DNA of 64,000 nucleotides from Bacteroidota bacterium (GTDB lineage: Bacteria > Bacteroidota > Bacteroidia > B-17B0 > Aurantibacillaceae). Position 1 is the stretch's first letter. Each line of letters begins with the position of its first letter. Below the pieces are notes generated by a model that was not told the DNA's origin, made no database searches, and worked only from the letters and a program-made list of their open reading frames with translations. Below, one piece after another: positions 21,784-40,662 of this stretch. Position numbers and translations under genes: made by a program. Location: contig JAHBTI010000014.1 of NCBI GenBank assembly GCA_019638705.1, positions 1 to 64,000 of the forward strand, written 5' to 3'.

Positions 21784-23316
21784 TTACGCCGCTTCCCTCA
21801 AATACTCCTGTTCCTCAAAAATCCGCATTTCGCCGCCCTGATTGTATCTGCCGTTTTGTATTGCCAAACCCTTTTCGGGAATTTCAATCACACTATCCAC
21901 ATTGTGCTGAAATTCATTGCCGCCTCTGAAATTTCCCTCTTTGGTAGTTTGGAAAACATAAACAAAGGATTTTTCGGGATTAGCGTTTCGCAAGGCTTCC
22001 AAGTCGGAAGCCGATAGTTTTAAACTGTTTATACTGTCAAAGAAAATAAAATCATACAAACTCAAATCGGGCGGTATGCTTTCCGATACATACAAATTCG
22101 GGTGAGCCACTTCTTTTGCGTTCAGTTTGTTTTGCAAGGTCATATCTAAACCCTCCTCACGCGCCACATACAACACCTTACCGTGATTACGCGCCAAGTA
22201 GCCCGCAAAATCCATACACAAAAACGATTTACCCATTTTAGGTTTTCCGAATACCATTGCGGAAAATCCTTTGGCGGGGTCGCCGATGAGTTTACGGTAT
22301 TTGCCAACAAAACCCAACGTGCGGAATTGCATACGTTTAAAATCCATGCTGTTCATCACACCCGAAGACACATTTGGTTTTTGCTGCGCTTGGTAAATGC
22401 TGTTTGATTGTGTGCAGCTCGGCTCGCTGTTCATTGCAGGACAAGCACAACCTTCCAACACACCGTTCAATCCGTTGAGTTCGGGTTCTTCAATATTCAG
22501 TACGCTGTGCGATTTGTTTTTCACATACTGACTTAAATTGCTGTGCATTTGGTCAAATACTTTGATGTACTTATCTTTCTTGGTAATGTGTCCTTTGTCA
22601 AAGGCGCGTGTCATGGCTTCCATTAAACGTTTGGCATTTTCTTTCACGCCGTATTTTCCGTTCAGGCTGATGTAACGTTTAATCAAAGCCACAGAGGGCA
22701 TAATTTTTTGTTGAGCGATTAACGCTTTAAATTCCAAAATAATTTTCTGGTCTATTTGCACGGTAAAAGCCGATTTCATGTCGTTGTAACGTTTTATCAA
22801 CTTATCCTGTATGTATTCCATTTGCTTAGCATACGGCGAAGTTTTACGAATACGCTTTTCAATAATAGCTCTGTGCAAGGCATTGATAAAACGTAACAAA
22901 TCCTCTTTCGTTTTTCGTTTGCCGTTCATGGCAAGGTAACGGCGCATAAAACGTATTTCTTCGGGAATACGCTCTACCAACTCAATATCCTGTTCGTCCT
23001 CTGTGTGCGTTTGCACATGAACAATTTTCGGTTGATGTTCTTTCTTTGCTTTTGCTTGTGGCGAAGTTTCATGTTTGGGTGCTTTGTACGTGGAAACTGT
23101 TTTTTCGGGGCGGTTGTTTTGTTCAATTAAAAAAGCGTTCAACTTGTCAATGGTTGTATCAATCACTTTTTTAATGTTCGGATTTTCGTAAGCGTTCCAA
23201 TTTGTTCCGTTCTCTGTGGCTTTTAATACCCATTGATGAGCCTTAAATAAATTGTCGGGCAGTTCGGAATTATTTATTGCCTGTGTTTGTTGTATGTAAT
23301 TGTTTTTACTAATCAT
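21784..23316 (-). CDS. RecA/RadA-like P-loop ATPase of the virus-like block
   Basis: 510 residues. The C-terminal about 190 are a RecA-fold ATPase: Walker A GKPKMGKS (357-364) and a Walker B strand FIFFDSI (about 418). The N-terminal part contains an internal duplication of about 55 residues: 'RRYLAMNGKRKTKEDLLRF' (about 125) matches 'KRYISLNGKYGVKENAKRL' (about 213), each followed by 'RIRKTSPYAKQM' / 'HITKKDKYIKVF'. The ATPase could act in replication (helicase loader or RadA-like) or packaging. It lacks the FtsK/HerA features of known PRD1-type packaging ATPases. Last gene of the operon, 26 bp after the large helicase. Confidence 0.75.
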   Translation of the reverse strand: MISKNNYIQQTQAINNSELPDNLFKAHQWVLKATENGTNWNAYENPNIKKVIDTTIDKLNAFLIEQNNRPEKTVSTYKAPKHETSPQAKAKKEHQPKIVHVQTHTEDEQDIELVERIPEEIRFMRRYLAMNGKRKTKEDLLRFINALHRAIIEKRIRKTSPYAKQMEYIQDKLIKRYNDMKSAFTVQIDQKIILEFKALIAQQKIMPSVALIKRYISLNGKYGVKENAKRLMEAMTRAFDKGHITKKDKYIKVFDQMHSNLSQYVKNKSHSVLNIEEPELNGLNGVLEGCACPAMNSEPSCTQSNSIYQAQQKPNVSSGVMNSMDFKRMQFRTLGFVGKYRKLIGDPAKGFSAMVFGKPKMGKSFLCMDFAGYLARNHGKVLYVAREEGLDMTLQNKLNAKEVAHPNLYVSESIPPDLSLYDFIFFDSINSLKLSASDLEALRNANPEKSFVYVFQTTKEGNFRGGNEFQHNVDSVIEIPEKGLAIQNGRYNQGGEMRIFEEQEYLREAA

Positions 23317-23342
23317 GCTTCGTGTTTTTTGTAATGAAAAAA

Positions 23343-26300
23343 TTATGCTGCCATATCCAAATCCAATTCTAAAGCCAATAAAATAGCCTCTGACTCCAAT
23401 TCTAAAATTCGTATGCGTTCTGTTTCCGCTTCGTTCTCATCGGGCGGCAATTCAATTTTCTTGTGTGTGGACACACGCACCGTGTTTGTTTTTATTAAGG
23501 AAAGCATATTGGGCGCAATCTGTACACTTACGCTGAATTTGTTTTGCAGAATATCCGCAAAGGCTTCCGCATTTTCTTTGGGCAAGTAGGCTTGCATTTT
23601 GTCGGCTGTTTTCTCAAACATTCCTTTTTCCAAAAGTTGCAACAAATCATTGTCCAAATAAATCTCACCGCCCTTGCTGCGCGATAGCGGCACAATCACA
23701 CGGAAATTATTTCCCGCTTCAAAAAACGCAATATCGTTGGAAGCATACAAAGCCCTGCCGTTAGACAAGGATTGTAAAATAGGCAGAGCTTTAATAATGG
23801 GAACAGTAATGTGTTTTAAGGCTTCTTTCGGCTGCCATTCTTCGGGCATTAAAATTCCTTTTTTGGTTTGTCCGTTCATTGTGGTATAACTTACCAACTT
23901 GCCGCTTTTCTCTGTACCAAAGGCTTGTAAGAGGTTGCCCGTAATGATGTAACGAATGCCTCTGTCTTTGTTTTTCTGTTTTATTTCTTCGTTCCATTCG
24001 TTTAACAAATCCTCTTGCGCAGGTTGCTCTGTATCATGGCTCGCCGAAATAATATTGGCAATGTCATTATTAAAACTTGCGGGTATAGCAAAATACTTGC
24101 TGCTGTTGGCAATGGCTATGCGTACACGCACCACGCTCGGCGCATACGGATTTTTCTTTTTCTTGTCAATCATTATTCCCAAACTCACCGCCAACACTCT
24201 TTCGTTGCCGTTGTCAAACGTAACCACAGGATAAGCTAACTTACGACCTATGGTAAAGAAATTTAAAATGCGTTGTAAATGTTCCTGTTTGTGTTTGTAA
24301 GATTTGTTGATTTGCTCTGCTGCCAAAACACGCGCCGCATTCAATTCTTTTTCTCTTTCTATTTTAGCTTGACTATATGCTGTATCACCTTCCTTTTCTC
24401 GTATCTTTTGAAGTTTCTTTTCGTTTGGAATTTCTTTTATCAGCGTGTCGTATTTTCCTTGACTGTCTTTTAATTCCGTTTCGCGGCGTGTTTCCATTGT
24501 GTTAGTAAAATCATCTAACAGTTCGCGTTTGTGTTCTTCCGCATATTTTCCTGCCAATGTTTCGTTCAACATATTTTCAAGTTCTGTTTTAGAAAACGGT
24601 TTTTTCAAAATATTTGCCTGTACTTTTTCTATCATGCTGTCATCACCAAACGAGCTTTCACCGCCTCTGCCTACTTTGACGATATTTGTTTCAAGGGTTT
24701 CCGCTTGTAAATTCAGGGCTTCCACTTCCAAATCATAGTCGCCGATTTGTTTTAAGTATTCCACATAATCGTTGTAACGCTCTGTTATCTCTGCGTAAAA
24801 ATCTGCCTGCATTTGTGTTGATAATACCGCCACACGCCCCGATACGCGGTGCGCTGCTTCTTCCGTATTTTCCGAACTTGTGCTGCTTGCGTTCAAATGC
24901 AAAGGGTCGCCCAACAACTCATTGATGTTGGGATTTTCCAAAAGATATTCTTTCACCACTTTGTCGCCGTACTTATTCAGAAAATCGGGTACATCTAAAA
25001 TCTTGGTGCTTTGTTTTTGGTTGGAAGTGGTGTTCGCGTCCAATGATTTTAATTTCTTTTGCAACATCATCATCAAACGTTTTTCGGCGGGAATGGCAGA
25101 AATAACATAATCGTAAATCGGTTTTAAAATTTGTCCTGTGCGATTAATGCGCCCGCGTTTTTGTACTTCGGTATTAATATCCAATTCGGCTTGCAAGACA
25201 ATCATCACACGCTGTTTCACTTGCTCTGCGGGAACTTTGGGCGTTACAATGGCGTGAGCCGAAGCCCCTGTACTGCCCGACTGATTAATCATCAGTACGT
25301 CCATTTCATTATTGTTAAATAGACGAAATGCGTCATTGGTCGTTAAACGTTTGCGTGATGTTACCAAACCCTTATTGCCTTGTGCATTGGGTTGTACGGC
25401 AAACTTTCTCCCTGTTACTTCGGCAACACGATAGCCCGCGCTTTCCAATTTTTGTATAATTAAATCTATCGGGCTGATTGAAATGCCTGTGCTGATTTGA
25501 TTGATGTTGTTTAAAATACGCTCGTATTCTTTTCTTGCTTCCTCGTCTAAATCGGATAAGGTAAATTCCTTGAATATGGATTGTCCGTTCACATCTTTTT
25601 CGGTGTAACGCATGACACCGCTCAAGCCTTTTCTTAATACTTCGGCAAAATCGTTGTTGATTAAATCACCGTCCCCCACAGGCAAACCTTTTTCGTTTTC
25701 CATTTGCTCAATAAAACTTCCCATAGTGGAAGCAAAAGCAATCACAGGTTTTTTACCTTCTTTCAAACGTTGAATGGTGCGCTCTGCAACCGCTTCGGCT
25801 TTAATGCTGAACAACATTTGATTAATCACGTTGAACACTTTTGAGAAGTAAGGCAGATTGTCCACACCTGCCTGTGATGTTCCCTCACGTATTTCAATTT
25901 CTTTTCCCTCTGCAACGGCAACCTTATCTAATTCTTCTACCTGCTTATCAATAAAATTACTTTGAAAGGCAATGATGTCGCGCAGGGCTTGTGTAATCAA
26001 GTCGGCAGTTTGCTTGTGCTTGACTTCGTAATTATCCAACGAAATATAATTGACTTCCACGCCCTCAAAACTGCGTTCGCGGCGTATCATCTGCCCCTCT
26101 GCCACCAACTGACTTGATAAAATTTCCTGCAAAGCAACACCGCCTTTTTGTATGGCTTCCACCAATTCGTCTTTAGTCATGTTGGCTTCGCTGATAGCAG
26201 TTTTCATGGCATAAATCGGCATATTGTCGGGGCGTTTGGCAAAGGTGGCAGAAAGAAAAACCACACCCGAACATTCGTGAACAACGTATTGCATGAACGC

Positions 26301-28172
26301 ACCTGTATTGCTTGAGCCGCTTGAATTATGCGCCTCGTCCATAATGAGTAAATTGTCTTTTGCAATTTGTCTTAGGAAGTTTGGTTTTTCGGGTTTCTTG
26401 TCGGGTGAATTAAACTGCGAATATGTGCCGACTACAAAATCATAGTGTGCGGGAATTTCACCGCTCTGAAAAATGCTTGACTGTTCGGCTGATGATAACG
26501 CCTGATACACGATGTTGCCGTCTTCGTCTTTAATATCTGTTTTAGCTTCTCTGCCGTTAATGATAAATGGTTTTAAGTGCGGCGAGCCGATAGCAACAAG
26601 GTCGCGGTAGATGTCGGAAAACAAATTTGCTTTTTCTGTTATGAAAATTGGTTTTAATCCGCGCTGCACGGCGTAGCGTATCATGGCGGCGGCAATGCGC
26701 CCTTTACCAATGCCTGTTTGGTCGCCGATAATCATACCTTGCCCTTTGGCTTCCACGTTGTATATCGCCATAGCCACCGCGTCCGTTTGTTCGGCGGACA
26801 AGGCTTGGCACAAAGCGGTATGCGAAGTATAACCTAAACGGTGTCGCACAAAATTATCCATGTTGCCGCCCACTTCCGTTTTTATGCGCGTGAGTGCGGC
26901 TTGTGTTTCGTAGCTCATGGAGTCAGGAACTTGTGTGTTTAAGACTACACAACTTTGTGAAGCGGGTAAATAAGGCGCACCCAAATCATTTTCGTTTTCC
27001 GTGTTTTCATCATCTTTAAATGAAGCTAAAATGTCCAAGCCTTCTTTCAGTAATGCTTCTATGTTTGTATTCATGTCTTGGTTGTTTGTGCTGTAATAAA
27101 TTGTCGGGTTGTTTATTTCGTCTTCGTTTACCCATTGCATGACCTTATAAAACAATTCGTCAAAGGATTTTATCGCTTTGTCCTGTGCTTCATTCTTAAC
27201 AGGGGCTGCCCCTTGCGGCTTGTCTTTTTTACCGTCAATTAAAATCAGTCGCACAGGAAAACTTGTGCCTTGCCGTGTGTAAAGTCTGTCGCCGTTAATT
27301 TGTATAACATCTGTTACATGATAATAACAGTAGAGGTAATTGAAAAAAATTCTGTTTTTACCTCTTTCAATTCTTCCCAATGTATCCCATTTGGTATGAC
27401 CGCCGATGATGATAGCAGCTTTGCCATTACTCACCATTCTGTCTAACGCACGCAAAGCCATGAGGTGGTCTAATACCTTTATGGGATAACCTTTGTAATC
27501 AACGGCTTTGTTTAAAACCCCGAAAGGCGGATTGGTTACTACTGCCTTGATTTGTCCGTAACTGTCCAAAAAGTGAAACGGCTCTGTGGCATCTTCCTTT
27601 GTTACCAAAGCAAAACCCTGTGTCTGTAAATTTCGGTTACGGGTTCTGTCAATTTCGTTTACATACACGCGGTTTGGTTTTGCGGCAATGGTCAATAAAC
27701 CGTTGCCTGCACTCGGCTCAAAGGCATACGCATTGTTGTTCTGCAAATCGGGTAAACCGCAAAACACACCCATTAAATACGCAATGGGTGCAGGTGTGGA
27801 ATACTGTTGTAACATAATACTCTGACTTGTGCGGTGGGAGAGTATCATTTGATTGTTATACAAGGCAACAATCTTGTCGTATTTTTCTTTTACAGTTCCC
27901 TCGCTGTGTGCCAATTCCCGCGCTACGTTTACGATAGCCAATTCGGTGAGTTCTTTGATTTCCGTTTGGTCGCGTATTTGCAACGAATAGGCAAGTGCTT
28001 CCACGCTTCGTTTTGTGTGCTTATACCCCACGCGCAAATCCTTTTGCATATAGTAAACAAACTCCTGATAGTTTTCGGGCAAGCCATGAAAGGCGGGCAA
28101 CACCGATGTTGTATCGGTGTTGCCCAAAACATGAAGATTAGATTTCCGTTTCTGAAATTTCTTGTTCTTCAT
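23343..28172 (-). CDS. DNA methyltransferase-Strawberry notch helicase fusion
   Basis: 1609 residues. An N-terminal N6-adenine-type methyltransferase carries motif I EPSAGNG (152-158) and motif IV NPPF (214-217). A Strawberry-notch-type SF2 helicase follows, with Walker A GDQTGIGKG (483-491), DEAH (612-615), 'LSATFAKRP' (about 640) and the C-terminal SNO helicase half ('INQSGSTGASAH', 'QKRGRINRTGQ'). A long coiled-coil/beta region covers residues 1120-1609. Such fusions are known on plasmids and phages, and are thought to modify and remodel element DNA or counter restriction. This is the only obvious replication-scale enzyme in the block. The gene ends 26 bp before the ATPase, with the same strand and codon style. 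Confidence 0.9.
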   Translation of the reverse strand: MKNKKFQKRKSNLHVLGNTDTTSVLPAFHGLPENYQEFVYYMQKDLRVGYKHTKRSVEALAYSLQIRDQTEIKELTELAIVNVARELAHSEGTVKEKYDKIVALYNNQMILSHRTSQSIMLQQYSTPAPIAYLMGVFCGLPDLQNNNAYAFEPSAGNGLLTIAAKPNRVYVNEIDRTRNRNLQTQGFALVTKEDATEPFHFLDSYGQIKAVVTNPPFGVLNKAVDYKGYPIKVLDHLMALRALDRMVSNGKAAIIIGGHTKWDTLGRIERGKNRIFFNYLYCYYHVTDVIQINGDRLYTRQGTSFPVRLILIDGKKDKPQGAAPVKNEAQDKAIKSFDELFYKVMQWVNEDEINNPTIYYSTNNQDMNTNIEALLKEGLDILASFKDDENTENENDLGAPYLPASQSCVVLNTQVPDSMSYETQAALTRIKTEVGGNMDNFVRHRLGYTSHTALCQALSAEQTDAVAMAIYNVEAKGQGMIIGDQTGIGKGRIAAAMIRYAVQRGLKPIFITEKANLFSDIYRDLVAIGSPHLKPFIINGREAKTDIKDEDGNIVYQALSSAEQSSIFQSGEIPAHYDFVVGTYSQFNSPDKKPEKPNFLRQIAKDNLLIMDEAHNSSGSSNTGAFMQYVVHECSGVVFLSATFAKRPDNMPIYAMKTAISEANMTKDELVEAIQKGGVALQEILSSQLVAEGQMIRRERSFEGVEVNYISLDNYEVKHKQTADLITQALRDIIAFQSNFIDKQVEELDKVAVAEGKEIEIREGTSQAGVDNLPYFSKVFNVINQMLFSIKAEAVAERTIQRLKEGKKPVIAFASTMGSFIEQMENEKGLPVGDGDLINNDFAEVLRKGLSGVMRYTEKDVNGQSIFKEFTLSDLDEEARKEYERILNNINQISTGISISPIDLIIQKLESAGYRVAEVTGRKFAVQPNAQGNKGLVTSRKRLTTNDAFRLFNNNEMDVLMINQSGSTGASAHAIVTPKVPAEQVKQRVMIVLQAELDINTEVQKRGRINRTGQILKPIYDYVISAIPAEKRLMMMLQKKLKSLDANTTSNQKQSTKILDVPDFLNKYGDKVVKEYLLENPNINELLGDPLHLNASSTSSENTEEAAHRVSGRVAVLSTQMQADFYAEITERYNDYVEYLKQIGDYDLEVEALNLQAETLETNIVKVGRGGESSFGDDSMIEKVQANILKKPFSKTELENMLNETLAGKYAEEHKRELLDDFTNTMETRRETELKDSQGKYDTLIKEIPNEKKLQKIREKEGDTAYSQAKIEREKELNAARVLAAEQINKSYKHKQEHLQRILNFFTIGRKLAYPVVTFDNGNERVLAVSLGIMIDKKKKNPYAPSVVRVRIAIANSSKYFAIPASFNNDIANIISASHDTEQPAQEDLLNEWNEEIKQKNKDRGIRYIITGNLLQAFGTEKSGKLVSYTTMNGQTKKGILMPEEWQPKEALKHITVPIIKALPILQSLSNGRALYASNDIAFFEAGNNFRVIVPLSRSKGGEIYLDNDLLQLLEKGMFEKTADKMQAYLPKENAEAFADILQNKFSVSVQIAPNMLSLIKTNTVRVSTHKKIELPPDENEAETERIRILELESEAILLALELDLDMAA

Positions 28173-28173: not shown

Positions 28174-28749
28174 TTATTTGTAATCTAAAACGAGCCTGTC
28201 ATTCCAAACATTGTCAAAGTTCTTGTTACCATCTGCCCACTCATAAGTAAATATGCCGTCATGGTTGGTGATTTTTTGTATTGCAAAAACTTCCAAATCT
28301 GGTCTTGCTGCGGGGCTTGCAAAGCCTTTGTATATCACGTAAGGATTGGTTTCGTCCACAATCACAGGCTCAAAAAACACTTTGCCGTCCAATGTGATGA
28401 TGGTGGCTTTAATATCCCGTATTAATCCGTCAATAACCGATAGCTTGTCCAATTCCTCTATTTGTTTTGCTTCGGTTGCGCCCCCTGCCGCAGTACCGCC
28501 GCCGTCCGAGCCTTGCAGCATGGCGTTAATGGCTTCCCTTAATTCGGTGGGATTTGCCGTTAGCGGTTGTGTTACATCTGTGTAAGGTACATACACATTG
28601 TACAACGCGCCCTTGCCGCTGTCAATCTTAATGATGTTGTTTTGCACAACGGCTATCTCAATAATTTGCGCTTTAACAATGTTGCGCACCGATGTACCCG
28701 ATGTGATTTTTAAACTTGCGCCGTTGTTCTCTATGGTAATTGCTGCCAT
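28174..28749 (-). CDS. Phage-type virion-associated protein (inferred)
   Basis: 191 residues. The N-terminal beta domain (about 1-75; VYVPYTDVTQPLTANPTEL) and the C-terminal domain (about 118-191) are joined by a Gly/Ala linker (GSDGGGTAAGGATEA). The C-terminal pattern 'VDETNPYVIYKGFA ... ITWADG-like YEWADGNKNFDNVWNDR' resembles a module I associate with many phage structural genes. Its exact role is unknown. It abuts the helicase gene (1-bp gap) and is surely co-transcribed. Confidence 0.6.
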   Translation of the reverse strand: MAAITIENNGASLKITSGTSVRNIVKAQIIEIAVVQNNIIKIDSGKGALYNVYVPYTDVTQPLTANPTELREAINAMLQGSDGGGTAAGGATEAKQIEELDKLSVIDGLIRDIKATIITLDGKVFFEPVIVDETNPYVIYKGFASPAARPDLEVFAIQKITNHDGIFTYEWADGNKNFDNVWNDRLVLDYK

Positions 28750-29019: not shown

Positions 29020-29670
29020 TTATTGAATGGCTTGTTTAACGATTAACGTGCTTGCTACTCCGCTCACAAACAACAAGCCGCTTGCCAAAATTTTGTTTTG
29101 CCTGTTTTTCTTTTTTTGAATTTTGTAGGCAATGTTCAACTGTTCGGTTAAATGCCGTTCGCGTTCCTGCTGCTCTTTCTGCAAATCCCGAAATATATTT
29201 TCGTTTTGCCTGTACAGATAAACGGAACTGTCGCGGTTGGCGACAAGGCGTTCCAATGCGTGTATAACTTCGCTGCAAGTGCTGTCCTGTACAAGCTGCG
29301 CCGCCATGTAATTTTCTGTTATCGGAATAATCGTGTCGGCAATTATGGGTAAACTGTCGTACCGTTTTAAACTTTGCTTTAACCGTATTCCAAAAAACTT
29401 TGTTTTAGCGCGTGAAACTGCCAACGATTTTTTCTTTGTATTTGTAACTTTTTTCAAGCTGTCGTTCGTGCTTTGTAAAGCAGATATTTTTGCTTCGTGC
29501 TGCTTTAAAAAAAATTGCTTTTCGTTTCTCCACTTATGCAGATAGGTAGTGTCCTGCGGCGGCGGAGAATGTTTTTCCCTGAAGCTGTGCCAAAGCGCAC
29601 TCGCAGCGATGAGAATTAAATACAGCGTAAAAATGACAAGCATTCCGTTTTTCTTTAGTTTGGATTTCAT
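29020..29670 (-). CDS. Membrane-anchored coiled-coil protein (spanin-like shape)
   Basis: 216 residues: an N-terminal TM (MLVIFTLYLILIAASALW, about 9-26), a long central coiled coil (about 45-180), and a second hydrophobic segment near the C-terminus (ILASGLLFVSGVASTLIV). The layout could bridge envelope layers like a phage spanin or form part of an internal-membrane virion. No sequence family is recognised. Confidence 0.6.
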   Translation of the reverse strand: MKSKLKKNGMLVIFTLYLILIAASALWHSFREKHSPPPQDTTYLHKWRNEKQFFLKQHEAKISALQSTNDSLKKVTNTKKKSLAVSRAKTKFFGIRLKQSLKRYDSLPIIADTIIPITENYMAAQLVQDSTCSEVIHALERLVANRDSSVYLYRQNENIFRDLQKEQQERERHLTEQLNIAYKIQKKKNRQNKILASGLLFVSGVASTLIVKQAIQ

Positions 29671-29707: not shown

Positions 29708-29929
29708 TTATGGTTTGTTGGTCGGTCTTCGCTCTATGCTGTACCCGAAGCAGCCTGCGGCAATCAAACTCACTATGGAGTAAAACATATATTCGGGTGT
29801 GGTAACATTAAAGAGCAGTTGGGCTATCCAACTTGCAATCACCAAAAGCATACAGATAGCGATAATGAGTTCACGCAAACTGTATTCGTTGGTTTTGTCT
29901 TTCAGTAGATTTTTTAAAAAGCAACTCAT
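29708..29929 (-). CDS. Small two-TM membrane protein
   Basis: 73 residues from the ATG at 29929 (MSCFLKNLLKDKTNEYSLREL). An upstream start would lie deep inside the preceding gene. Two TM segments (LIIAICMLLVIASWIAQLLF, YMFYSIVSLIAAGCFGYSI). It overlaps the end of the YkuD-like gene by 59 bp. The size and two-helix form suit a holin, which would fit the two wall-cutting enzymes just upstream, but no holin family match is visible. Confidence 0.55.
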   Translation of the reverse strand: MSCFLKNLLKDKTNEYSLRELIIAICMLLVIASWIAQLLFNVTTPEYMFYSIVSLIAAGCFGYSIERRPTNKP

Positions 29930-30635
29930 TGTTTTTTTGTTTTTTGTTTTGTTTGTTATTTGTTTTCCTGTTTTGTTGCGTGTACAGATAATAACCTGCC
30001 GCGCCAACACCCAACAATCCCGCTGCGAAAAAACCTGCCCGCCTTATGCTTTGCCTGCGCCACGAACGAAAATCAATCAACGTATAAGTGAACTGATTTC
30101 CGTAGCGTTGCTCATGTTTTTTGCAGAGCTGCATGAACGTTGCAAAGTCGCTTGCGTTTTCAAAGACCTGACAGCCTGCCGAATTTTTATCAACTGTTTT
30201 TGTTGTGCCTGTGCTGTTGGCTCTGTGTATGTTTATGCTAAACAGTCCGCTCATTTTTTTGCCGTTGTAAAAATCCAATATGGCGTTTCGGTCATAGTCG
30301 CGCATGATTGTAACAGGATTTTGCTGTACTAAGGCTTCGTATTTTCCCTGATGTAAGCCGATAGCATAAGCGTTTTTGTATTGTCCCTCTGCCAATATTG
30401 CCGTGCCTTGTTCCTGCATGGGGTTTTCCAACCAAAATGTACCGGGGTCTGTGGTTATCTTAAACACATGGTATTCCCAATGCAAGGGGCTTGTTGTATA
30501 AAATACATGAAGCTCATCATCAAAGCGGTTGGGTATGGTGCTTTTGCTTCTTAACCCTACAATGTTGAATTGATACGGTTTTGAATACAAAACAAATCCC
30601 TTGTATTTTAACAAAGCCTTTAAGCGTTGCAACAT
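29871..30635 (-). CDS. YkuD-like (L,D-transpeptidase/endopeptidase fold) protein with C-terminal anchor
   Basis: 254 residues. The active-site pattern H-x14-S-x-G-C is present: 'INIHRANSTG' (H137) and 'NSAGCQVF' (S152, C155), the L,D-transpeptidase signature, also used by some phage wall-cleaving enzymes. A hydrophobic segment near residues 200-218 (AGFFAAGLLGVGAAGYYLY) and a polar Lys/Asn/Gln tail follow. It sits beside the amidase gene. It probably modifies or cuts peptidoglycan during entry or exit, tethered to a membrane. No signal peptide. Confidence 0.7.
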   Translation of the reverse strand: MLQRLKALLKYKGFVLYSKPYQFNIVGLRSKSTIPNRFDDELHVFYTTSPLHWEYHVFKITTDPGTFWLENPMQEQGTAILAEGQYKNAYAIGLHQGKYEALVQQNPVTIMRDYDRNAILDFYNGKKMSGLFSINIHRANSTGTTKTVDKNSAGCQVFENASDFATFMQLCKKHEQRYGNQFTYTLIDFRSWRRQSIRRAGFFAAGLLGVGAAGYYLYTQQNRKTNNKQNKKQKNNELLFKKSTERQNQRIQFA

Positions 30636-32775: not shown

Positions 32776-32831
32776 TGCTTATTGCCTATTGCAAATTGCT
32801 TATTGCATATTATCTATTGCCTATTGCTGAT
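32776..32831. repeat. Heptamer tandem repeat (TATTGCC type)
   Basis: Degenerate tandem 7-mers (CTATTGC, TTATTGC, CAAATTGC) fill the gap between two genes; the same motif recurs at 33096-33145. Confidence 0.7.
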
Positions 32832-33013
32832 TACACGCCTAACGCCTTTTTCGCCATTGCTGTTTTAATCGGGTCGTGCTTCACGATGTGCGCCAACTTT
32901 TCCAATTCCTTTGCGGATAGCTTGGAGGCTAATGTTGTTAAGGCTTGCATTTTAATATCGGCTTCTTTTTCGTTGTTCGCTGTAATAGCGATGTCGTAAT
33001 TATGCTTTGTCAT
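32831..33013 (-). CDS. Small conserved helical protein
   Basis: 60 residues. 'ANNEKEADIKMQALTTLASKLSAKELEKLAHIVKHDPIKTAMAKKALGV' is a compact helical protein of the type I have seen in Bacteroidota mobile elements. No named function. Flanked on both sides by heptamer repeats, the upstream copy lying in its leader. Confidence 0.6.
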   Translation of the reverse strand: MTKHNYDIAITANNEKEADIKMQALTTLASKLSAKELEKLAHIVKHDPIKTAMAKKALGV

Positions 33014-33095: not shown

Positions 33096-33145
33096 GCTCA
33101 TTGCCTATTGCCTATTGCCTATTGCAAATTGCTCATTGCCTATTG
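33096..33145. repeat. Second heptamer array (TATTGCC type)
   Basis: At least four tandem TTGCCTA units plus variants. The stop codon of the 298-residue gene (33140-33142) falls inside the array. Confidence 0.7.
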
Positions 33146-34036
33146 CTGTTCTTCTTGCTCGTCTTCGCTCTCGTCTTCCTGTGAAAGAAAATCAATCAAG
33201 ATTTGCAACTGCGTTTTGTCCTTGCTTAGAAAATCCAAAAGTTCCATAACGGCAGACATTTCTTCTTCGCTGTACAATTTTTCCAACTCACGCATAAGGC
33301 GAATAAATGTTTGTTCTTCCTCGCTTAGTGCGGGTGCGGCGGCGGTGTCCGACAGCGTACTGTTGTCTTTTTTGGAAAATGATACTTCGGCGTTTTCGTT
33401 GGTGTCAGTTTTGTTCTCTTGCTCAATCAAACCTGCTAACCCTGCTGTGGCGGGCAGTTTGGCAAGTAAGTGAGTATTGCGTTTTACCAAACCCTCAAGG
33501 GCTAAGGAAAGAACATCGCCCAAATGAATGCCGCCGATTTTGTTGCCGTTGGCTTTTGCCTCTTTAATGGCGGCGCGGTATTCTTCAATTTCGTTTTCCC
33601 TTTCTTCCAACTCCTCGCGTAATTCCTCGTTCTCGCTTAGCAGCACAGCAATTTGCCGTTGTTCGGCACTTTGTTTGTTTTTTTCTTCCCGCCAATCGTT
33701 CAGCGAAGTTTTGGAATGTGGTTTTGTCGTTTCAAAACCGTTTAATCCGATGTTGTTCGCTTCGGTACGGTTGCGGGCTTTGAGCATAAACACATATTGG
33801 TCGTTGCGCGGCGAAGCGGAAGAGTTGTAAATCAAAATTCTGATTTGTTCGGTGTCCGCGTTCATGTAATCCTCATAAGCGTCAAAGTCATTCGGCTCGT
33901 CCGTTTTGGGAACGGCTTTGAGATTGTCCACAAAAATTTCGTAGTGCTTGGCTTTTCCTTTTTGCGCCATTGACACCAAATGATTTTTTAAGCGGTCAAT
34001 TTTTTGTTGGTCAAAATTGTCAAATTGTATAGGCAT
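33140..34036 (-). CDS. Acidic coiled-coil protein of the virus-like block
   Basis: 298 residues. An N-terminal alpha/beta domain (about 1-115; 'YEIFVDNLKAVP', 'QIRILIYNSSASPRNDQYVFML') is followed by a coiled coil (about 118-160) and a very acidic C-terminal third (EEEQTFIRLMRELEKLYSEEEM ... DESEDEQEEQQ). No TM. Scaffold-like composition; possible scaffolding or assembly protein, inferred only from shape and position next to the beta-rich genes. Confidence 0.6.
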   Translation of the reverse strand: MPIQFDNFDQQKIDRLKNHLVSMAQKGKAKHYEIFVDNLKAVPKTDEPNDFDAYEDYMNADTEQIRILIYNSSASPRNDQYVFMLKARNRTEANNIGLNGFETTKPHSKTSLNDWREEKNKQSAEQRQIAVLLSENEELREELEERENEIEEYRAAIKEAKANGNKIGGIHLGDVLSLALEGLVKRNTHLLAKLPATAGLAGLIEQENKTDTNENAEVSFSKKDNSTLSDTAAAPALSEEEQTFIRLMRELEKLYSEEEMSAVMELLDFLSKDKTQLQILIDFLSQEDESEDEQEEQQ

Positions 34037-34048: not shown

Positions 34049-34375
34049 TTATTTTTCTGTGTTGCGTTTTGGTATCACCTGTATAAACCGCAGGTGATTA
34101 ATTCGGTTGGCGTTGTTGCTGATGTGCATTATTCCCTGATGTTCGTAATTCTGCTCGTTGCCGTTATTCTGAACGGTGTCGTACAGCCCGAAGTCTGACT
34201 CCACTTTCACGTCTTCAACTTCTTCCACGAGTACGAACACATGACCGCAAGCATTGATTTCTATGCTTTCATTGGCTTGCAGCACAAAATGTCTGAAACG
34301 CAAATGGTAGTTTTTGCCGTGTCCCAATTCTTCCATGCGGCGCGGGATATATTCTAAAGCTAAGGCTATGGTCAT
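34049..34375 (-). CDS. Small beta-rich protein
   Basis: 108 residues with predicted alternating strands ('NYHLRFRHFVLQANESIEINACG', 'GHVFVLVEEVEDVKVES', 'INHLRFIQVIPK'). No family recognised. 13 bp after the acidic coiled-coil gene. Size and strand pattern would suit a minor capsid or vertex protein. Confidence 0.55.
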   Translation of the reverse strand: MTIALALEYIPRRMEELGHGKNYHLRFRHFVLQANESIEINACGHVFVLVEEVEDVKVESDFGLYDTVQNNGNEQNYEHQGIMHISNNANRINHLRFIQVIPKRNTEK

Positions 34376-34385: not shown

Positions 34386-34997
34386 TTAGTCTTGTGCTGC
34401 TTTTCGTTCTATCCACAGATACACATTTACGATGTAATCGGGATTTTGTCCGCTGCTCTTGTCCTTGTAAACGCCTGTTATCACAGGGTTTTTGCCGTTG
34501 AGTGAAATTTCATCTTCAAAGCATTGCGTTTGGTGCGTGTAAGCAAACGCTTTCCAAAATGCGTTGAGTGAAAAATCTTTTTCGCCGATGTTGTTCTCGC
34601 TTGCCTTGATGTCGGCGGTATAAAAAATATCGGCTTCATCGCAGCTCTGCAAACGCAACTCTCCGAACAATTCATTACGCTGAAAATTTTTCATCAACTC
34701 ATCGCTTGGTGTTTCCGTTGGCGGTGCTGTGCTGTCCGTTGTCGGCGGCGGCGTTACCTCTGTTCTGTCCTCTCCCTCTTTCGGCGGCTCTTTCGGTGGC
34801 TCTGAGGGCGGCAAGGGCGGGTCTGGCAAGGGCGGCTCAATCGGCGGCGTGGGTATTTCAGTAACTTTTAACTGCCTGTGTCCGTATTCCACGCCCACAA
34901 TACGCCCGCAATTCTGCGGCAGCTTTACCTGAAACACATACACCTGTTTTGATTTGGTGATGTGCATTTTGATTGCAAATACCTGTTCGCGTATCAT
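34386..34997 (-). CDS. Beta protein with a proline-rich hinge
   Basis: 203 residues. A short N-terminal strand domain (1-48), a Pro/Glu/Thr-rich hinge at about 49-98 (PPIEPPLPDPPLPPSEPP...), and a C-terminal beta domain ending 'DYIVNVYLWIERK', which resembles the end of the next gene ('AYRVSLYLDCEM'). The long proline hinge separating two domains recalls spike or fibre proteins on tailless virions. Function unknown. Confidence 0.6.
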   Translation of the reverse strand: MIREQVFAIKMHITKSKQVYVFQVKLPQNCGRIVGVEYGHRQLKVTEIPTPPIEPPLPDPPLPPSEPPKEPPKEGEDRTEVTPPPTTDSTAPPTETPSDELMKNFQRNELFGELRLQSCDEADIFYTADIKASENNIGEKDFSLNAFWKAFAYTHQTQCFEDEISLNGKNPVITGVYKDKSSGQNPDYIVNVYLWIERKAAQD

Positions 34998-35002
34998 ACT
35001 GC

Positions 35003-35380
35003 TTATGCTTCCATTTCACAATCCAAATACAACGACACTCGGTAAGCCGCAAAGCTGGTGCGCGTGTCGGGATTGTCCGTGTAACTTAATTTAATGATAC
35101 CGTTGCCCGTGTTCACATTGCCCAAATCGTAATAGCGTTGCTTGGGCGAAACGTTTATACCCGACATGAGTAATTTACTCTCGTAGTTTTCGGGGAAAAA
35201 TTCCTCGCTGTTGATTTCAATTTTCTGTGTGCCTCTGTAATACAGCAAATCGTCTTTGTCCGATGTGAGCAACACGCCTCTGACGGTTTTAATGCTTTTG
35301 TCCATTTCAAAGGTCTTGCTCAGCGATTGCCCGCTCGCGGTTATCTGTATATCAAATCGTTTTTTTACGGCTTTCAACAT
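35003..35380 (-). CDS. Small beta-sandwich protein, possible minor capsid
   Basis: 125 residues, almost wholly alternating beta strands ('KRFDIQITASGQSLSKTFEM', 'VRGVLLTSDKDDLLYYRG', 'YRVSLYLDCEMEA'). 'EEFFPENYESKLLMSGINVSPKQRYYDLG' is a distinctive segment. No named family. Lies immediately after the terminator behind the capsid candidate, 5 bp before the proline-hinge gene. Confidence 0.6.
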   Translation of the reverse strand: MLKAVKKRFDIQITASGQSLSKTFEMDKSIKTVRGVLLTSDKDDLLYYRGTQKIEINSEEFFPENYESKLLMSGINVSPKQRYYDLGNVNTGNGIIKLSYTDNPDTRTSFAAYRVSLYLDCEMEA

Positions 35381-35473: not shown

Positions 35474-36196
35474 TTATGGTGTAGTAATTGTTCCGTGCAA
35501 GCCTGCAAATACATGGGTTCTTGGGTCAATCCCGTCCATAGTGCCTAACTCAATGGTCATCTCTACCAAGATGTCATCTTGAACAAGGCGCGGGTTGGCA
35601 AGTTTGTAATAGCCAATCGGCACGTTGTGCATATTGCTTGTCTTAAACACATTGTTGGAAGTTTCAGGCACAATTTGTTTTTTGTTGCTCTTTAATGAAA
35701 ACTCTCCGTTGGCAATGGAAGGTATGGCGGCTATATCACCGAAGTTAATCGCCATGATTTTGTCTTTGGTGTTTTCTGTTGCTACGCCCGCCAACAATAC
35801 AATGCCACTTACCAACAAGGATTGATTTTTCGGAAGTTTTGCATTGGAGATGTTGCGCAAGCCGATTTCTTTGTCGTCCTGCGTTTCAAACAACTTGATT
35901 GTTTTACTGTTCACCTGCTTAATGCTGTATATCACCGTATCAGCCAATCGCAATTCACCTTTGGTTAAGGCTGCTTTGATGTGGTCGGGCAGTTCCGAAA
36001 AATGTTTTTCCATTTCTGCGCGTGAGCCTTTGCTCACACCGCCTGTGCTTGCCAATTTGTTTACCGTGCGTTGCCGTGCAATGGGGTTCATTTTGCGCAA
36101 TGCGCCTAACAGTTCCTCGTTGCCGTCCAAGCCCTCTAAGCCCAACAACGCACCTACGTTGTTGTATTCTTCTATTCCGTTTAACATTTCTAACAT
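35474..36196 (-). CDS. Candidate jelly-roll capsid protein
   Basis: 240 residues. The N-terminal about 70 are helical (MLEMLNGIEEYNNVGALLG ... PIARQRTVNKLAS). From about 85 on it is a continuous beta domain of about 155 residues (TVIYSIKQVNSKTIKLFET, SLLVSGIVLLAGVATEN, GYYKLANPRLVQDDILVEM) ending 'THVFAGLHGTIT'. The size fits a single jelly roll with an N-terminal arm. Its own terminator and long upstream leader suggest strong separate expression, as expected for a major structural protein. I cannot confirm the fold without structure prediction. Confidence 0.55.
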   Translation of the reverse strand: MLEMLNGIEEYNNVGALLGLEGLDGNEELLGALRKMNPIARQRTVNKLASTGGVSKGSRAEMEKHFSELPDHIKAALTKGELRLADTVIYSIKQVNSKTIKLFETQDDKEIGLRNISNAKLPKNQSLLVSGIVLLAGVATENTKDKIMAINFGDIAAIPSIANGEFSLKSNKKQIVPETSNNVFKTSNMHNVPIGYYKLANPRLVQDDILVEMTIELGTMDGIDPRTHVFAGLHGTITTP

Positions 36197-36962: not shown

Positions 36963-36995
36963 GTCTGTTTTGTTTTTTTTTGTTTGTTGCTGCAC

Positions 36996-38960
36996 TTACA
37001 TTAAAGCGATGTTGGATTTTTTTCCCTGCCTGCTTTGTCGTTTGCCTGTCTTCCTTTTTCTTTTCTTTCCGCTACGCTTGCCTACGCCGTTCAAGCCGTT
37101 GCCCCCGCCCGATGATTTTTTCTTGGTTTTGTTTTTGCCTGCTATCATGCGGTAACCTGCATACAACACGCCCGCCACACCTACACCTATGCCCACAGGT
37201 TTGAGCCATTTTTTATTGTTTTCCCAAAAGGCTTTTATTTTTCCTGCTTTGCTTACGGTGCTTGCCGTGTTGCTGTTTGCCGTTGCGGTGTTTGTCGTTT
37301 TACTTGCGGCGGGAAGCGCGTTGTTTGTGCTTGGTGTTTCTTCATTCATGTTGTCTTCGTCTGTATCGTTAGGGGCTGCACTTCGGGATTGCGCCGAATA
37401 ATCGGTGTCCTCGCCGCCCTCATCGTAATTTGATGATGTGTCGGCAGAATAATTTTCGCTTGTGCTGCTTTCACCGCCGCCGCTTGTTCTAACGGTGGCT
37501 TCGCCGTCTTCACTTGCACTTGCATCGCTGTTTTCTTCTGCTGCGCTTGTGCGATTGTTGTTTGCGGCGGTGCTTGCACTTGTTGGCTTGTTGTTTGCGG
37601 CGGCTGCTTTTGCGGCTTTGGCTTTTTTGTTCGGAAACAAATTGCCCAACGATTTTATTAAAGCGGCTATGCTGCCCATAACGGCGGTGGCGGCGGTAAT
37701 AGCGGCAGTTGCTGTTACCGCGCCTAATTCGCCAAGTCCTTCCATTTCGCCCATGCCTTCTATAAACTCATCGCGATATACTTCGCCGAGCAATTCGCCC
37801 AAGTTGTCTGTTGCGCCTAAGTCTGTTGTTCCGATTTCGTTTTCATCAATCAAACCCAAGCCGCTCACTTCTTTGTTAGGATTGCCTTTGCCCGATAGTA
37901 TGGCTTGTTTTAAGTTTTCGGGTTTGCCGCCTGCGGTGTAAAATATGTTCTCTGTTTTGGTGAGAATATTTTTGAGCTTGCCGTACTTGGTCATGTCCAT
38001 ACCTTTGGCGCGGGCTTGGTCTTCGCTCAGGTATGCCCACTTTAAGTTTTCGGCAACGTGCAAAACGTTCAGCTTCATGGAAGCCAACACACCTGCGCGT
38101 AACAGAGCCGTAGCGGGATTAACCTTGTTGGTTACGTTCAGCACTTTTTTGGTTACCTGCTTTGCTTTCTGCAAATTCTTTTTCAGGTTCTCTTTTGTTT
38201 TTGCAGGAAGTTTGGGCTTAATGGCTGCCAACTTTGGTTTAGCGGCGGCAATTTTTGTTTTCAGTTTTTGCAAGGGTTTGGGTTTCGGCTTGCTTGGTGC
38301 TGCACTTGCTTTTTTCTTAAAGAGTTTGCCTAAATCTCCGAACTCACCGTTCATGCCCGAAAACGTTTGCATATCTACATTGCCGCGCGTTCTGTTTTCT
38401 GTTTCGTCTTCTATTCCGTCTAAGTAGTGTAAATCCATTTTAAAATCTTTTTTTTCTGAATAAGGTTCTTCGTAGTTAAATCTGTTTACCACGCAATCCA
38501 TTGTGATATAGTTGCCGTTCCCTAACGGCACTATGGGATAGATGTGCTGAAAATTGTCTTTCCAATATTTTGTAATGCGGTGGATTACACGAAAGCCCAA
38601 TGATGTTAAGCACGTTGAAATAAACGTGGTAAAGCAATCACAGTCGCCAACGCCGTCATGTATCAGCCTGCGCGGGCTGCGCACCTGCTCTTGTCCGCGC
38701 TCGTCTTTTTGGTAGCGTATGTGATATTTTACAAAGTGCCATAGTTTTTCGCAAGCGGCATACATGGGCAAGCCGCGCAATTCCTGATTGACATAAGCCT
38801 CTACCTGCCACTGTGTTTTTTTGACTACCTGCGGAATAAACTTCACCGTGTCGGCAACGTTCGCGCCTTTTTTCATGGTCTTATCTATCGCCGTTGCTTT
38901 TGGGAACAGGTGGCGGTACGGCTCAAGGCTTTCTAATTTTACTTGTATAATCGCTTCCAT
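36996..38960 (-). CDS. Transglutaminase-like protein with long disordered region and C-terminal TM
   Basis: 654 residues. Transglutaminase-like fold at about 60-190 with a plausible triad: Cys107 (GVGDCDCF), His139 (NFQHIYP), Asp155 (YITMDC). Then a Lys/Ala-rich basic region (about 220-290), a helical domain, a low-complexity Ala/Ser/Asn/Glu region (about 450-570) and a TM helix near the C-terminus (VGIGVGVAGVLYAGYRMIAG, about 590-610) with a strongly basic tail. Could process structural proteins as a protease or cross-link them. In this context it is a maturation-enzyme candidate. Confidence 0.75.
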   Translation of the reverse strand: MEAIIQVKLESLEPYRHLFPKATAIDKTMKKGANVADTVKFIPQVVKKTQWQVEAYVNQELRGLPMYAACEKLWHFVKYHIRYQKDERGQEQVRSPRRLIHDGVGDCDCFTTFISTCLTSLGFRVIHRITKYWKDNFQHIYPIVPLGNGNYITMDCVVNRFNYEEPYSEKKDFKMDLHYLDGIEDETENRTRGNVDMQTFSGMNGEFGDLGKLFKKKASAAPSKPKPKPLQKLKTKIAAAKPKLAAIKPKLPAKTKENLKKNLQKAKQVTKKVLNVTNKVNPATALLRAGVLASMKLNVLHVAENLKWAYLSEDQARAKGMDMTKYGKLKNILTKTENIFYTAGGKPENLKQAILSGKGNPNKEVSGLGLIDENEIGTTDLGATDNLGELLGEVYRDEFIEGMGEMEGLGELGAVTATAAITAATAVMGSIAALIKSLGNLFPNKKAKAAKAAAANNKPTSASTAANNNRTSAAEENSDASASEDGEATVRTSGGGESSTSENYSADTSSNYDEGGEDTDYSAQSRSAAPNDTDEDNMNEETPSTNNALPAASKTTNTATANSNTASTVSKAGKIKAFWENNKKWLKPVGIGVGVAGVLYAGYRMIAGKNKTKKKSSGGGNGLNGVGKRSGKKRKRKTGKRQSRQGKKSNIALM

Positions 38961-38964
38961 GTTT

Positions 38965-39453
38965 TTAGCTCGCGGGTTTTAGCGTGATGTTGCTTGTTGT
39001 TTCGTAAGGCAGCTGCTTCCAACCTAAATCAATGGTGGTAATGGTGCTTATTAAAATGTTTGCTTCTTTTTTGTTTACTAAAAGATTGTATAAGCCTGCA
39101 CCAAGTGAGAGTAAATTGAGAAGCGGCATTTTTATCATGATGCTTTCTATCACGGCTTCGCCATACGCGGGAATTGTTATGTCCTTGTTGATGACCTGCG
39201 ATGAGCCGATAACTTTATCCGCATACAACACTTTTACAAAGGGGAATTTAATTTTGAAAGTGCTGTTGGTTGGGTTTTTCAGTTGCAAGTCTATCCGCAC
39301 GGTTAAGCCGTCTGTTTTTAAGGAATGTATGCTGGCTTTGGCTACGGTTTCTAACTGTACGCTTGTGCGCTTCATGCGGGTAATGTATGTGATGATACCT
39401 GCAATGCCTGCGCCTATTGCCGTGCCTGTGATTATTTTTTTCCAATTCGCCAT
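38965..39453 (-). CDS. LEA14/WHy-like beta protein with N-terminal TM
   Basis: 162 residues. An N-terminal hydrophobic anchor (IITGTAIGAGIAGIITYITRM) precedes an LEA type 2-like fibronectin-type fold ('VRIDLQLKNPTNSTFKIKFPFVKVLYAD', 'IPAYGEAVIESIMIKMPLL'). LEA14-like domains occur in stress proteins and lipid/outer-membrane-linked proteins. Here it would be a virion or membrane surface protein. It ends 4 bp before the transglutaminase gene. Confidence 0.7.
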   Translation of the reverse strand: MANWKKIITGTAIGAGIAGIITYITRMKRTSVQLETVAKASIHSLKTDGLTVRIDLQLKNPTNSTFKIKFPFVKVLYADKVIGSSQVINKDITIPAYGEAVIESIMIKMPLLNLLSLGAGLYNLLVNKKEANILISTITTIDLGWKQLPYETTSNITLKPAS

Positions 39454-39486
39454 GTGTTGTTTTTCCTTACGCGCTGTGTGATTTTT

Positions 39487-39684
39487 TTACTCTGCCTTTC
39501 TTTTGTGTTTGTTTGCCGCACGGCGTGAGAAGTAGTCGCCCGCCAATTTGAACGACATCCAAATTGCCCCGCCTATGGCGGCTTTAATGGCATACGCCGC
39601 CAAGCCCGAATAATCCAAATTGGCGAACAGGATTGCGCCTGTGAGGAATGTGTGGGAAGCCGTGTCATTTGTGTTTACTTTCAT
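39487..39684 (-). CDS. Small two-TM protein
   Basis: 65 residues from the ATG at 39684 (MKVNTNDTASHTF). Hydrophobic segments TGAILFANLDYSGLAAYAI and IGGAIWMSFKLAG, then a basic tail (RRAANKHKRKAE). No family recognised. An upstream start would add a Lys-rich lead with no support. Confidence 0.5.
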   Translation of the reverse strand: MKVNTNDTASHTFLTGAILFANLDYSGLAAYAIKAAIGGAIWMSFKLAGDYFSRRAANKHKRKAE

Positions 39685-39815
39685 TTTTTTCTGTTTTGGT
39701 TTTGTTGTTATTAATTTTTTGATGATTACGGAAACAAAGGTGTGGCAAGGCTCTGACACGCTGACCGCGTTTACTTCGTGCTTAGTTCCTCTCGTCTTCT
39801 TTTTGCTGATTTTTT

Positions 39816-40043
39816 TCAGTTTGTTTCGTTTACAATTTTGCCCGATATGCCGTAAGTGTCAATGATAAACTTAACTTGCTTGGTGCTGTACAGATTGCCC
39901 ATTGGCTTGCCAATAGAAGGCTCTATGGCTTTGAGCCATTTTTGTCTGATGTGTTTGGGTATGCCTAAGATTTGACAGATTTCTTTTTTGGTGTAAGGTT
40001 TTAGCACAAAGGCTTCTTTCATTACGGTTACTTTTTTTTCCAT
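39816..40043 (-). CDS. Small HTH-like DNA-binding protein, paralogue of 40459
   Basis: 75 residues from the ATG at 40043. 'LKPYTKKEICQILGIPKHIRQKWLKAIEPSIG' looks like a helix-turn-helix of the excisionase/MerR-like kind; 'YSTKQVKFIIDTYG' follows. It aligns over its length with the divergently transcribed gene at 40459 (VKPYTNKELSGLFNTGERTFRREI ... WSVKQVEKIMEILG). Candidate regulator of the minus-strand operon. Confidence 0.65.
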   Translation of the reverse strand: MEKKVTVMKEAFVLKPYTKKEICQILGIPKHIRQKWLKAIEPSIGKPMGNLYSTKQVKFIIDTYGISGKIVNETN

Positions 40044-40064
40044 TTTTTTGATTTGAGGGTGCAA

Positions 40065-40458
40065 AACTGCAATACCTCAAACCCGCCCCTGTCGCGTTTG
40101 TCCGAGAACATCTCCCTTTGCCCCGATATGTCCTGACAAAGCCAAATCTGTCCGAAAAATCTTTTGGTTTTTAAACTTTTTGCGCTGAAATGTTTACTGA
40201 AACAGCTGCTTAGTACCTGAGAAATTCGGATAATTTTAATACGATAAATACACACAAACATGAACAAAGAAAAAACAGAAACAGAAAAATGGAAGTATGT
40301 GAAAAGGCAGATATAGTGCTGCTTTTACACAGATAACAAAAAAATCTTAGCAACAGTTTACAACCTAATTATGGTACACATGACATTCAGGGAGCGAACT
40401 CACACACGGCATTCTAAACAAAGAACAAGGAAGAAAGATGAATGTAAGAACTACTATC
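40065..40458. promoter_or_regulatory. Divergent regulatory region at the head of the virus-like block
   Basis: 394 bp without a supported gene between the two HTH paralogues. TGTCC occurs three times at 40099, 40129 and 40149 within related contexts (TTTGTCCGAG, ATATGTCCTGAC, ATCTGTCCGAAA), which could be operator sites. An 18-codon reading frame at 40259 (MNKEKTETEKWKY...) is probably too short to count. Confidence 0.4.
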
Positions 40459-40662
40459 ATGTCAGTAGAGGTGAAACCCTACACCAACAAAGAGCTATCA
40501 GGGCTTTTCAATACGGGCGAGAGAACATTCCGCCGAGAGATTGCAAAAATCAAACACCACTTAGGCGAACGCAACGGACACCGTTGGAGTGTGAAACAAG
40601 TAGAAAAAATCATGGAGATTTTGGGAAGACCTTATCAGGTGATTGAGGAAGAAACTTACTAA
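40459..40662 (+). CDS. Small HTH-like DNA-binding protein, divergent paralogue
   Basis: 67 residues from the ATG at 40459 (MSVEVKPYTNKELS). Same fold pattern as the gene at 39816, in opposite orientation, giving a face-off of two related regulators around a shared control region. The only plus-strand gene of the block; followed by its own terminator. Confidence 0.65.
   Translation: MSVEVKPYTNKELSGLFNTGERTFRREIAKIKHHLGERNGHRWSVKQVEKIMEILGRPYQVIEEETY

Follow-up and report, generated by a model that had tools for sequence, protein, structure and literature searches.

The closest described system to the locus reported here is SSIP-1, a tailless phage with a double-stranded DNA genome of 43.8 kb that is membrane-containing, has two types of major capsid protein (MCP; PMC6356626) and is grouped with the vertical single beta-barrel viruses (PMC4958249; PMC6356626). 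As of 2016, all known viruses with single beta-barrel capsids came from extreme environments (PMC4958249), and a 2019 review found the SSIP-1 genome to resemble hardly anything in GenBank (PMC6356626). Here, a stretch of 64,000 nucleotides (the window) from contig JAHBTI010000014.1 of a Bacteroidota bacterium (GenBank assembly GCA_019638705.1) was analysed for a compact gene block at 21784-40662, whose genes are lettered A to V (Table 1). Together with a large serine recombinase that ends at 57855, this block is most likely an integrated temperate virus (provirus) encoding a tailless, icosahedral and probably membrane-containing particle distantly related to SSIP-1. The block is probably the virion/ATPase module of a larger element that reaches to the recombinase.

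The relationship to SSIP-1 was detected through three proteins. Profile searches against a database of 45 SSIP-1 proteins matched R to gp34 (E-value 2.2e-13) and A to the ATPase gp40 (E-value 6.4e-13), and hhalign comparison of about 300 pairs ranked R/gp34 and A/gp40 first and second (96.8% each), followed by B/gp43 (34%). All three SSIP-1 proteins are annotated as structural, with gp43 annotated as a DNA methyltransferase; gp34 carries Transglut_core (8.9e-7), a domain found weakly in R. Both systems include an integrase; however, that of SSIP-1 is a tyrosine rather than a serine recombinase, its gene order is rearranged, and it comes from a salt-loving bacterium, a hypersaline isolate, whereas the family described here comes from groundwater, a bioreactor, soil and cultured Bacteroidota. 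The earlier note on this DNA, made from the sequence alone, had called A a RecA-like ATPase and B a methylase-helicase. The former agrees with the resemblance of A to AAA_25, and A is regarded as a candidate packaging motor. The family search (in which the P9/A32 motif was not searched for directly) gave no A32/FtsK match to A, and AAA_25 itself fell below the cutoff. For B, the strawberry-notch helicase was readily recognised, while the methylase half draws on the weak hhalign alignment to gp43 and on the sequence itself; copies without B often carry a small DNA methylase at that place. DarB of phage P1, a head protein that acts in cis to protect injected DNA from restriction (PMC5512222), has the same pair of domains; B differs by its strawberry-notch helicase, and its placement in the virion is suggested by gp43.

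Structures were predicted for P and O. The AlphaFold2 model of P, built with 53 homologues, had a predicted local distance difference test score (pLDDT) of 77; its N-terminal part is helical, and residues 82-240 contain eight strands. Foldseek searches of the PDB with this model returned as top matches the capsid proteins of EhV-201, SPV1, SGIV and PBCV-1 together with the FLiP penton, and a second structure aligner placed VP4 of SPV1, an archaeal virus (Portogloboviridae), first (Z 8.9, 3.7 A over 150 residues) at 10% sequence identity, ahead of the MCPs of nucleocytoplasmic viruses, HHIV-2, SH1, PRD1 and P23-77 (Z 7-8.6). The O model (pLDDT 94.9) formed a complete single jelly roll of eight strands. 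The P model also matched two entries of BFVD, I1ZBH9 (211 amino acids) and I1ZBI0 (256 amino acids), which may be gp46 and gp47 of SSIP-1, an assignment made by length alone. By sequence, the P and O profiles had no match in the PDB, neither protein matched PHROGs, hhalign detected no similarity between the SSIP-1 and operon capsid proteins, and in a search of annotated phages R was without a match at E 0.01 and P had one irrelevant match at E 8. Because Z values were moderate and no PDB sequence match was found, the capsid reading rests on predicted folds and context, by which P is the likely MCP and O may be a second capsid protein or penton.

The fold comparison also indicates where the family belongs. 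The earlier note had likened the block to the PRD1, PM2 and FLiP viruses and read it as an integrated membrane-containing virus or a domesticated particle derived from one. The structure check that it proposed was borne out for P and O, both models being single jelly rolls with mostly viral capsid proteins among their matches; the particular analogy was not, because neither model has two jelly rolls in one chain, and the nearest analogues are therefore SSIP-1 and the SH1/P23-77-type viruses. SSIP-1 structural homologues and a tRNA-associated recombinase were unforeseen in that note and strengthen the provirus reading. Halopanivirales-type viruses have two single-jelly-roll MCPs; the predicted structures of P and O, with matches to SH1, HHIV-2 and P23-77, are likewise two single jelly rolls, their role in the shell being putative. 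Like Sphaerolipoviridae, Simuloviridae and P23-77, the element would be tailless, with two predicted single-jelly-roll proteins, and would be expected to have internal membrane proteins; it differs from them in that no A32/FtsK-type ATPase was recognised, no sequence similarity was found, the hosts are Bacteroidota, and the elements are integrated and roughly 30-50 kb in size. FLiP and PhiCjT23 (Finnlakeviridae) are likewise membrane-containing phages of Bacteroidota, and the FLiP penton is one of the weaker matches of P, but they have a double jelly-roll MCP and a small single-stranded DNA genome. Caudoviricetes hallmarks (HK97 capsid, portal, large terminase and tail) gave no match among the operon proteins in Pfam and PHROGs (T and V in Pfam only), as the earlier note had observed for tail, portal and large terminase genes. 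We regard the family as a new form of tailless virus with vertical single jelly rolls, SSIP-1 being its nearest relative; it was not filed in an existing family since the P and O models lack the double jelly roll and the family search gave no clear assignment of A to the A32/FtsK type.

A scan of genome contigs with an alignment of P confirmed 151 relatives in Bacteroidota, of which the best 80 were kept, versus two in IMG/VR. The closest identity to P, 79%, was seen on a viral contig from a metagenome, while relatives in other genomes were 53-70% identical. Synteny, another check proposed beforehand, was extensive: the same order was found in 85 loci, namely (U) T S R Q P O N M L K J I H G F E D C, then B and A or replacements, with 18 gene families present in at least 60 of the 85 loci and P, Q, O, M, R, L and S in 85, 83, 83, 82, 81, 80 and 77, respectively; these counts are lower bounds, the loci often being incomplete at their ends. 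Extra or swapped genes occurred after P and around H-G, and several of those near H-G and P look like other wall-cutting enzymes. For P, O, R, L and J, pairs of close copies gave ratios of nonsynonymous to synonymous substitution (dN/dS) that lay mostly between 0.01 and 0.2, which indicates a functional module; with gene order kept in 85 loci and purifying selection this strong, the block is not a product of chance. Among 62 high-quality genomes from the host family, 29 contained P, without stop codons, in 1-4 copies and patchily within a genus, and A was present in all 18 genomes searched. Carriers include strains of Puia, Chitinophaga, Flavisolibacter and Niastella. Three loci (L025, L026 and L028) had in common about 14.2 kb at 94-95% identity, with megablast similarity stopping at the cargo side.

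Most of the earlier description of the block's layout stood. About 20 consecutive genes, nearly all on one strand, had been described; we counted 22 open reading frames (ORFs), 21 on the minus strand (21784 to 40064) and one small divergent ORF at 40438, with intergenic spacing of mostly 0-60 bp. The two divergent helix-turn-helix genes, U (39816) and V (40438), are paralogues as proposed, the same ORFs of other loci matching both. Terminators had been claimed on both sides: the two best hairpins of the scan do lie at the block edges (21777-21745 and 40698-40671), but terminator-like sites as a class were not enriched (38 found versus 31.4 expected from shuffles). At least ten proteins with one hydrophobic segment had been listed, and eight to ten of these hold when orthologues are considered, with a segment (Kyte-Doolittle >1.2) retained by nearly all orthologues of D, E, F, I, J, Q, R and S, by 70% of those of T and by 53% of those of G; a strict threshold (>1.6) left five in the window (E, F, J, R and S). 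The peptidoglycan enzymes were recovered in H (Amidase_2) and the endolysin-like G, with a weaker match for the peptidoglycan-binding protein I. Around gene K, runs of a 14-bp repeat (TTGCCTATTGCCTA-like) were seen at 32775-33162. PADLOC gave no match to X, A or B; defence-type genes stand at the position of X in two relatives (L153 and L154), one being a candidate defence protein (PADLOC PDC-S60; L153:14847-17957) directly behind A.

The association with a recombinase was examined in 20 copies of P whose contigs also bear a serine recombinase, the pairs being taken by hand. The recombinase was divergent and 10.5-31.6 kb upstream of P in 15 of the 20; of the other five, two had it downstream (at 5 and 43 kb), two farther upstream (at 69 and 73 kb) and one at 2.3 Mb. 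When contigs were read through, a complementary tRNA followed the recombinase in seven of eight, the window included (Ala, Leu, Phe, Arg, Lys, Ser and Ser), and in the remaining contig (G420) the sequence next to it resembles the 3′ end of a transfer-messenger RNA. A large serine recombinase next to a tRNA at the element's end, a trait of integrative elements, was thus found. Three genomes (G033, G407 and G410) instead carry a small gene and a large serine recombinase downstream of A, with an adjoining tRNA in G033 and G407, and two (G404 and G408) have a tyrosine recombinase there. A crude motif search for tyrosine recombinases in the flanks found none, as the loci stopped short of the element's end; recombinases did appear in longer pieces. 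Within the host family, the serine recombinase family is itself very common, often beside a tRNA and often without capsid genes, and judged by this pattern many other islands probably use it. These data also bear on an alternative in which a capsid provirus and an unrelated recombinase island are stacked at the same tRNA, so that recombinase and cargo would not be viral. Such stacking could be argued from the recombinase family being common without P (51 of 87 genomes versus 32 of 87 for P), from its lying next to A, on the opposite end, in G033, G407 and G410, and from the five copies without the usual spacing; yet the same side, the divergent orientation and a distance of 10-32 kb recur in 15 of 20 copies, and the compact copies G432 and G496 have little between operon and recombinase. 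We consider stacking unlikely.

In the window, the sequence inside the 3′ end of the recombinase recurs 40,052 bp to the left (57642-57689 and 17590-17637, 45 of 48 bases identical), which suggests 17590 and 57689 as the element ends. A 15-bp repeat of a tRNA-Ser 3′ end was found 41.7 kb apart in G407. In relatives without P (G461 and G451), tRNA-Ser keeps its rimM-pyrG neighbours and has ordinary genes on the other side. The tRNA-Asp at 17515 was disfavoured as the target because its 3′ end points away from the element. Searches for attachment sites in limited zones gave chance repeats only, the window repeat emerging from a whole-window comparison, and exact repeats at the recombinase-tRNA junctions of five relatives were not convincing, which is consistent with a short shared core or with ends outside the pieces examined. 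Immediately ahead of the tRNA terminator hairpin, the junctions do have an AAAT(A/G)AAAAA-like stretch in common, and this suggests that the integrase may recognise the T-run of tRNA terminators. At the left end, a 75-amino-acid ORF (17621-17848) starts within the 48-bp repeat and may be the tail of the recombinase frame before integration; it also has a terminase-small-like match to Sf6_terminase (1.9e-5) below the cutoff.

The genes between operon and recombinase varied among relatives, in which resistance and defence genes are frequent neighbours. They included type I restriction, resistance-nodulation-division (RND) efflux (ACR_tran, 2.3e-282), multicopper oxidase, and ArsR/ArsC-like genes accompanied by a major intrinsic protein; in some relatives there was little. 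The window has, at the corresponding place, proteins with repeats sorted by the type IX secretion system (T9SS), together with a two-component pair, and relatives have unrelated genes there. Three of these T9SS-sorted repeat proteins, all very large, lie at 40781-51783; the one at 43284-45626 resembles a paralogue of 14997-17417, which lies outside the candidate left end. Such cargo is unusual for a phage and raises a second alternative, in which host or island has retained a particle of viral origin that packages island and cargo, or host DNA as a gene-transfer agent does, instead of acting as a selfish virus. Many genome copies with few in virome data fit a kept particle as well, as does genome G049 (L009 and L010; C3, 53-208 kb), in which two copies have the capsid module inverted and 20-40 kb away from the recombinase-A-B module, the modules being separated by ordinary metabolic genes. 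Near-universal vertical inheritance without mobility, a trait of gene-transfer agents, was not what we found: the distribution is patchy even within one genus, with 1-4 divergent copies per genome and a recombinase at a tRNA. Moreover, B and the repressor genes make sense for a transmitted virus, and the linked neighbours could be separate, stacked islands. A kept particle is distinctly improbable in our estimate.

Other integrative islands linked to tRNAs and bearing cargo are Tycheposons and capsid-forming phage-inducible chromosomal islands (cf-PICIs), the latter with capsid genes of their own. The elements described here differ in encoding tailless jelly-roll capsids. Tentatively, and with rather less confidence than we place in the provirus itself, they may be self-packaging islands, that is, tRNA-targeted elements of roughly 30-50 kb with their own tailless, membrane-lined jelly-roll particle, routinely carrying beneficial genes that can be exchanged for one another (for restriction, for resistance to metals, copper and arsenic, and for secreted adhesin-like proteins) and so providing capsid-based adaptive gene transfer across Bacteroidota.

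Several observations weigh against the provirus reading: (i) the Z-scores of P are moderate and the non-viral enzyme PHM scores alike (Z 8.0), and for O, PHM stands on top (Z 8.9) above HHIV-2 and SPV1 (8.4 each); (ii) A resembles AAA_25/KaiC-type ATPases, not the usual A32/FtsK packaging type, and its match to SSIP-1 is less specific, ATPases of Bacteroides phages (p00, for example) being matched as well; (iii) no replication initiator was recognised; (iv) the few IMG/VR matches are the opposite of what a common lytic virus would give; (v) some copies have a tyrosine recombinase, or a serine recombinase beside A; (vi) the left end is a candidate, and the joined window flanks, searched for an empty site, gave only separate tRNA-Ser and tRNA-Asp matches; and (vii) no particle, excision product or circular contig was seen. 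PHM and other non-viral jelly rolls that score near capsid proteins, along with the peptidoglycan and LEA_2-like genes, could also be read as belonging to a non-viral system that serves the cell surface or remodels the wall, the beta proteins being jelly rolls of an ordinary kind; the homology of R and A to SSIP-1 virion proteins, the patchy multi-copy distribution and the linkage to recombinase and tRNA make this very improbable. A conjugative or mobilisable element is hardly credible, even though strawberry-notch methylase-helicases are widespread in other mobile elements (PMC5512222) and Tra-like genes were read from the sequence of one locus (L156) 22-31 kb from P and outside the recombinase and tRNA, as operon scans gave no relaxase, coupling protein or Tra match and neither conjugation nor tail genes, the neighbours that the earlier note had named as telling against it, were recurrent in the flanks or cargo of relatives.

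If the element is a provirus, its life cycle may be outlined as follows. U, V and, in relatives, an XRE/ImmA-type repressor (a protein with HTH_3 and Peptidase_M78) would keep it silent, and on induction the recombinase would excise a circle. P and O would assemble into a shell around a vesicle, the presumed internal membrane, that takes its shape from D, E, F, J, Q, R and S; A would power DNA packaging and H, G and I would open the cell wall. B would ride in the particle and shield the incoming DNA from restriction as DarB of P1 does, and the recombinase would integrate the circle at a tRNA terminator.

Table 1. Features of the candidate provirus and its surroundings in the window.
Feature	Position	Strand	Evidence or remark
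Candidate left end	17590..17637	.	48-bp direct repeat (45/48) of recombinase 3′ region; abuts tRNA-Asp (17515-17589)
HigB-like toxin and HTH_3 protein (likely antitoxin)	17930..18629	+	HigB_toxin 1.2e-31, HTH_3 7.3e-7; just inside candidate left end
X, 683-aa accessory gene, AT-rich	19567..21618	+	No Pfam or PADLOC match
A, RecA-like/AAA_25-like ATPase, candidate packaging motor	21784..23316	-	AAA_25 below cutoff; SSIP-1 gp40 homologue
B, adenine methylase and strawberry-notch helicase, DarB-like	23343..28172	-	Helicase_C_4/AAA_34; phrog_14770 5.5e-78
C, conserved core protein	28174..28749	-	61 loci
D, small protein with hydrophobic segment	28775..29005	-	62 loci; segment in all orthologues at >1.2
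E, hydrophobic segments at both ends	29020..29670	-	Hydropathy
F, one-segment membrane protein	29708..29908	-	64 loci; hydropathy
G, endolysin-like protein	29871..30635	-	phrog_3000 1.4e-35, phrog_33083 endolysin 6.3e-13
H, N-acetylmuramoyl-L-alanine amidase	30648..31088	-	Amidase_2 1.7e-17; phrog_822
I, peptidoglycan-binding-like, N-terminal hydrophobic segment	31127..32032	-	PHROG endolysin 1.1e-7; Pfam sub-threshold
J, annexin-repeat protein, N-terminal membrane segment	32049..32774	-	Annexin 2e-12; hydropathy
K, small conserved core protein	32831..33013	-	75 loci
L, conserved core protein	33140..34036	-	80 loci
M, conserved core protein	34049..34375	-	82 loci
N, proline-rich linker, fast evolving, possible spike	34386..34997	-	56 loci
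O, second single jelly-roll protein (putative second capsid protein or penton)	35003..35380	-	Model pLDDT 94.9; 83 loci
P, likely major capsid protein	35474..36196	-	Helical N-terminus and single jelly roll (82-240), model; 85 loci
Q, Gly-rich protein with hydrophobic segment	36366..36962	-	83 loci; segment in 99% of orthologues at >1.2
R, putative transglutaminase-like virion protein	36996..38960	-	SSIP-1 gp34 homologue; 81 loci
S, LEA_2-like, N-terminal membrane anchor	38965..39453	-	LEA_2 0.014, below cutoff; 77 loci
T, small protein	39487..39681	-	75 loci; hydrophobic segment in 70% of orthologues
U, small HTH-like regulator	39816..40064	-	70 loci
V, paralogue of U, divergent in window	40438..40662	+	61 loci
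Cargo-position region: T9SS-sorted NHL/SBBP/PKD proteins, response regulator, histidine kinase	40781..55002	-	Por_Secre_tail etc.
Small gene preceding recombinase	55887..56144	+	Homologues precede recombinase in G407, G410
Large serine recombinase (integrase)	56146..57855	+	Resolvase 4.5e-25, Recombinase 2.2e-7; 3′ end overlaps tRNA-Ser
Candidate right end	57642..57689	.	48-bp repeat inside recombinase 3′ end, before tRNA-Ser terminator
tRNA-Ser(gct), likely host target	57727..57816	-	rimM-pyrG context kept in relatives

A literature search, made without most subscription papers, found no description of this provirus family. The present analysis supplies more than 100 genomic relatives in ordinary Bacteroidota, and these, with the named carrier strains, make it possible to test the lineage, its capsid and its packaging motor. 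Elements of this type have few of the hallmark genes that usually give a prophage away; the mere two IMG/VR matches and the lack of a PHROG match to the capsid proteins suggest that they have been largely overlooked. If the cargo is packaged, metal resistance and defence genes would have in them a means of transfer.

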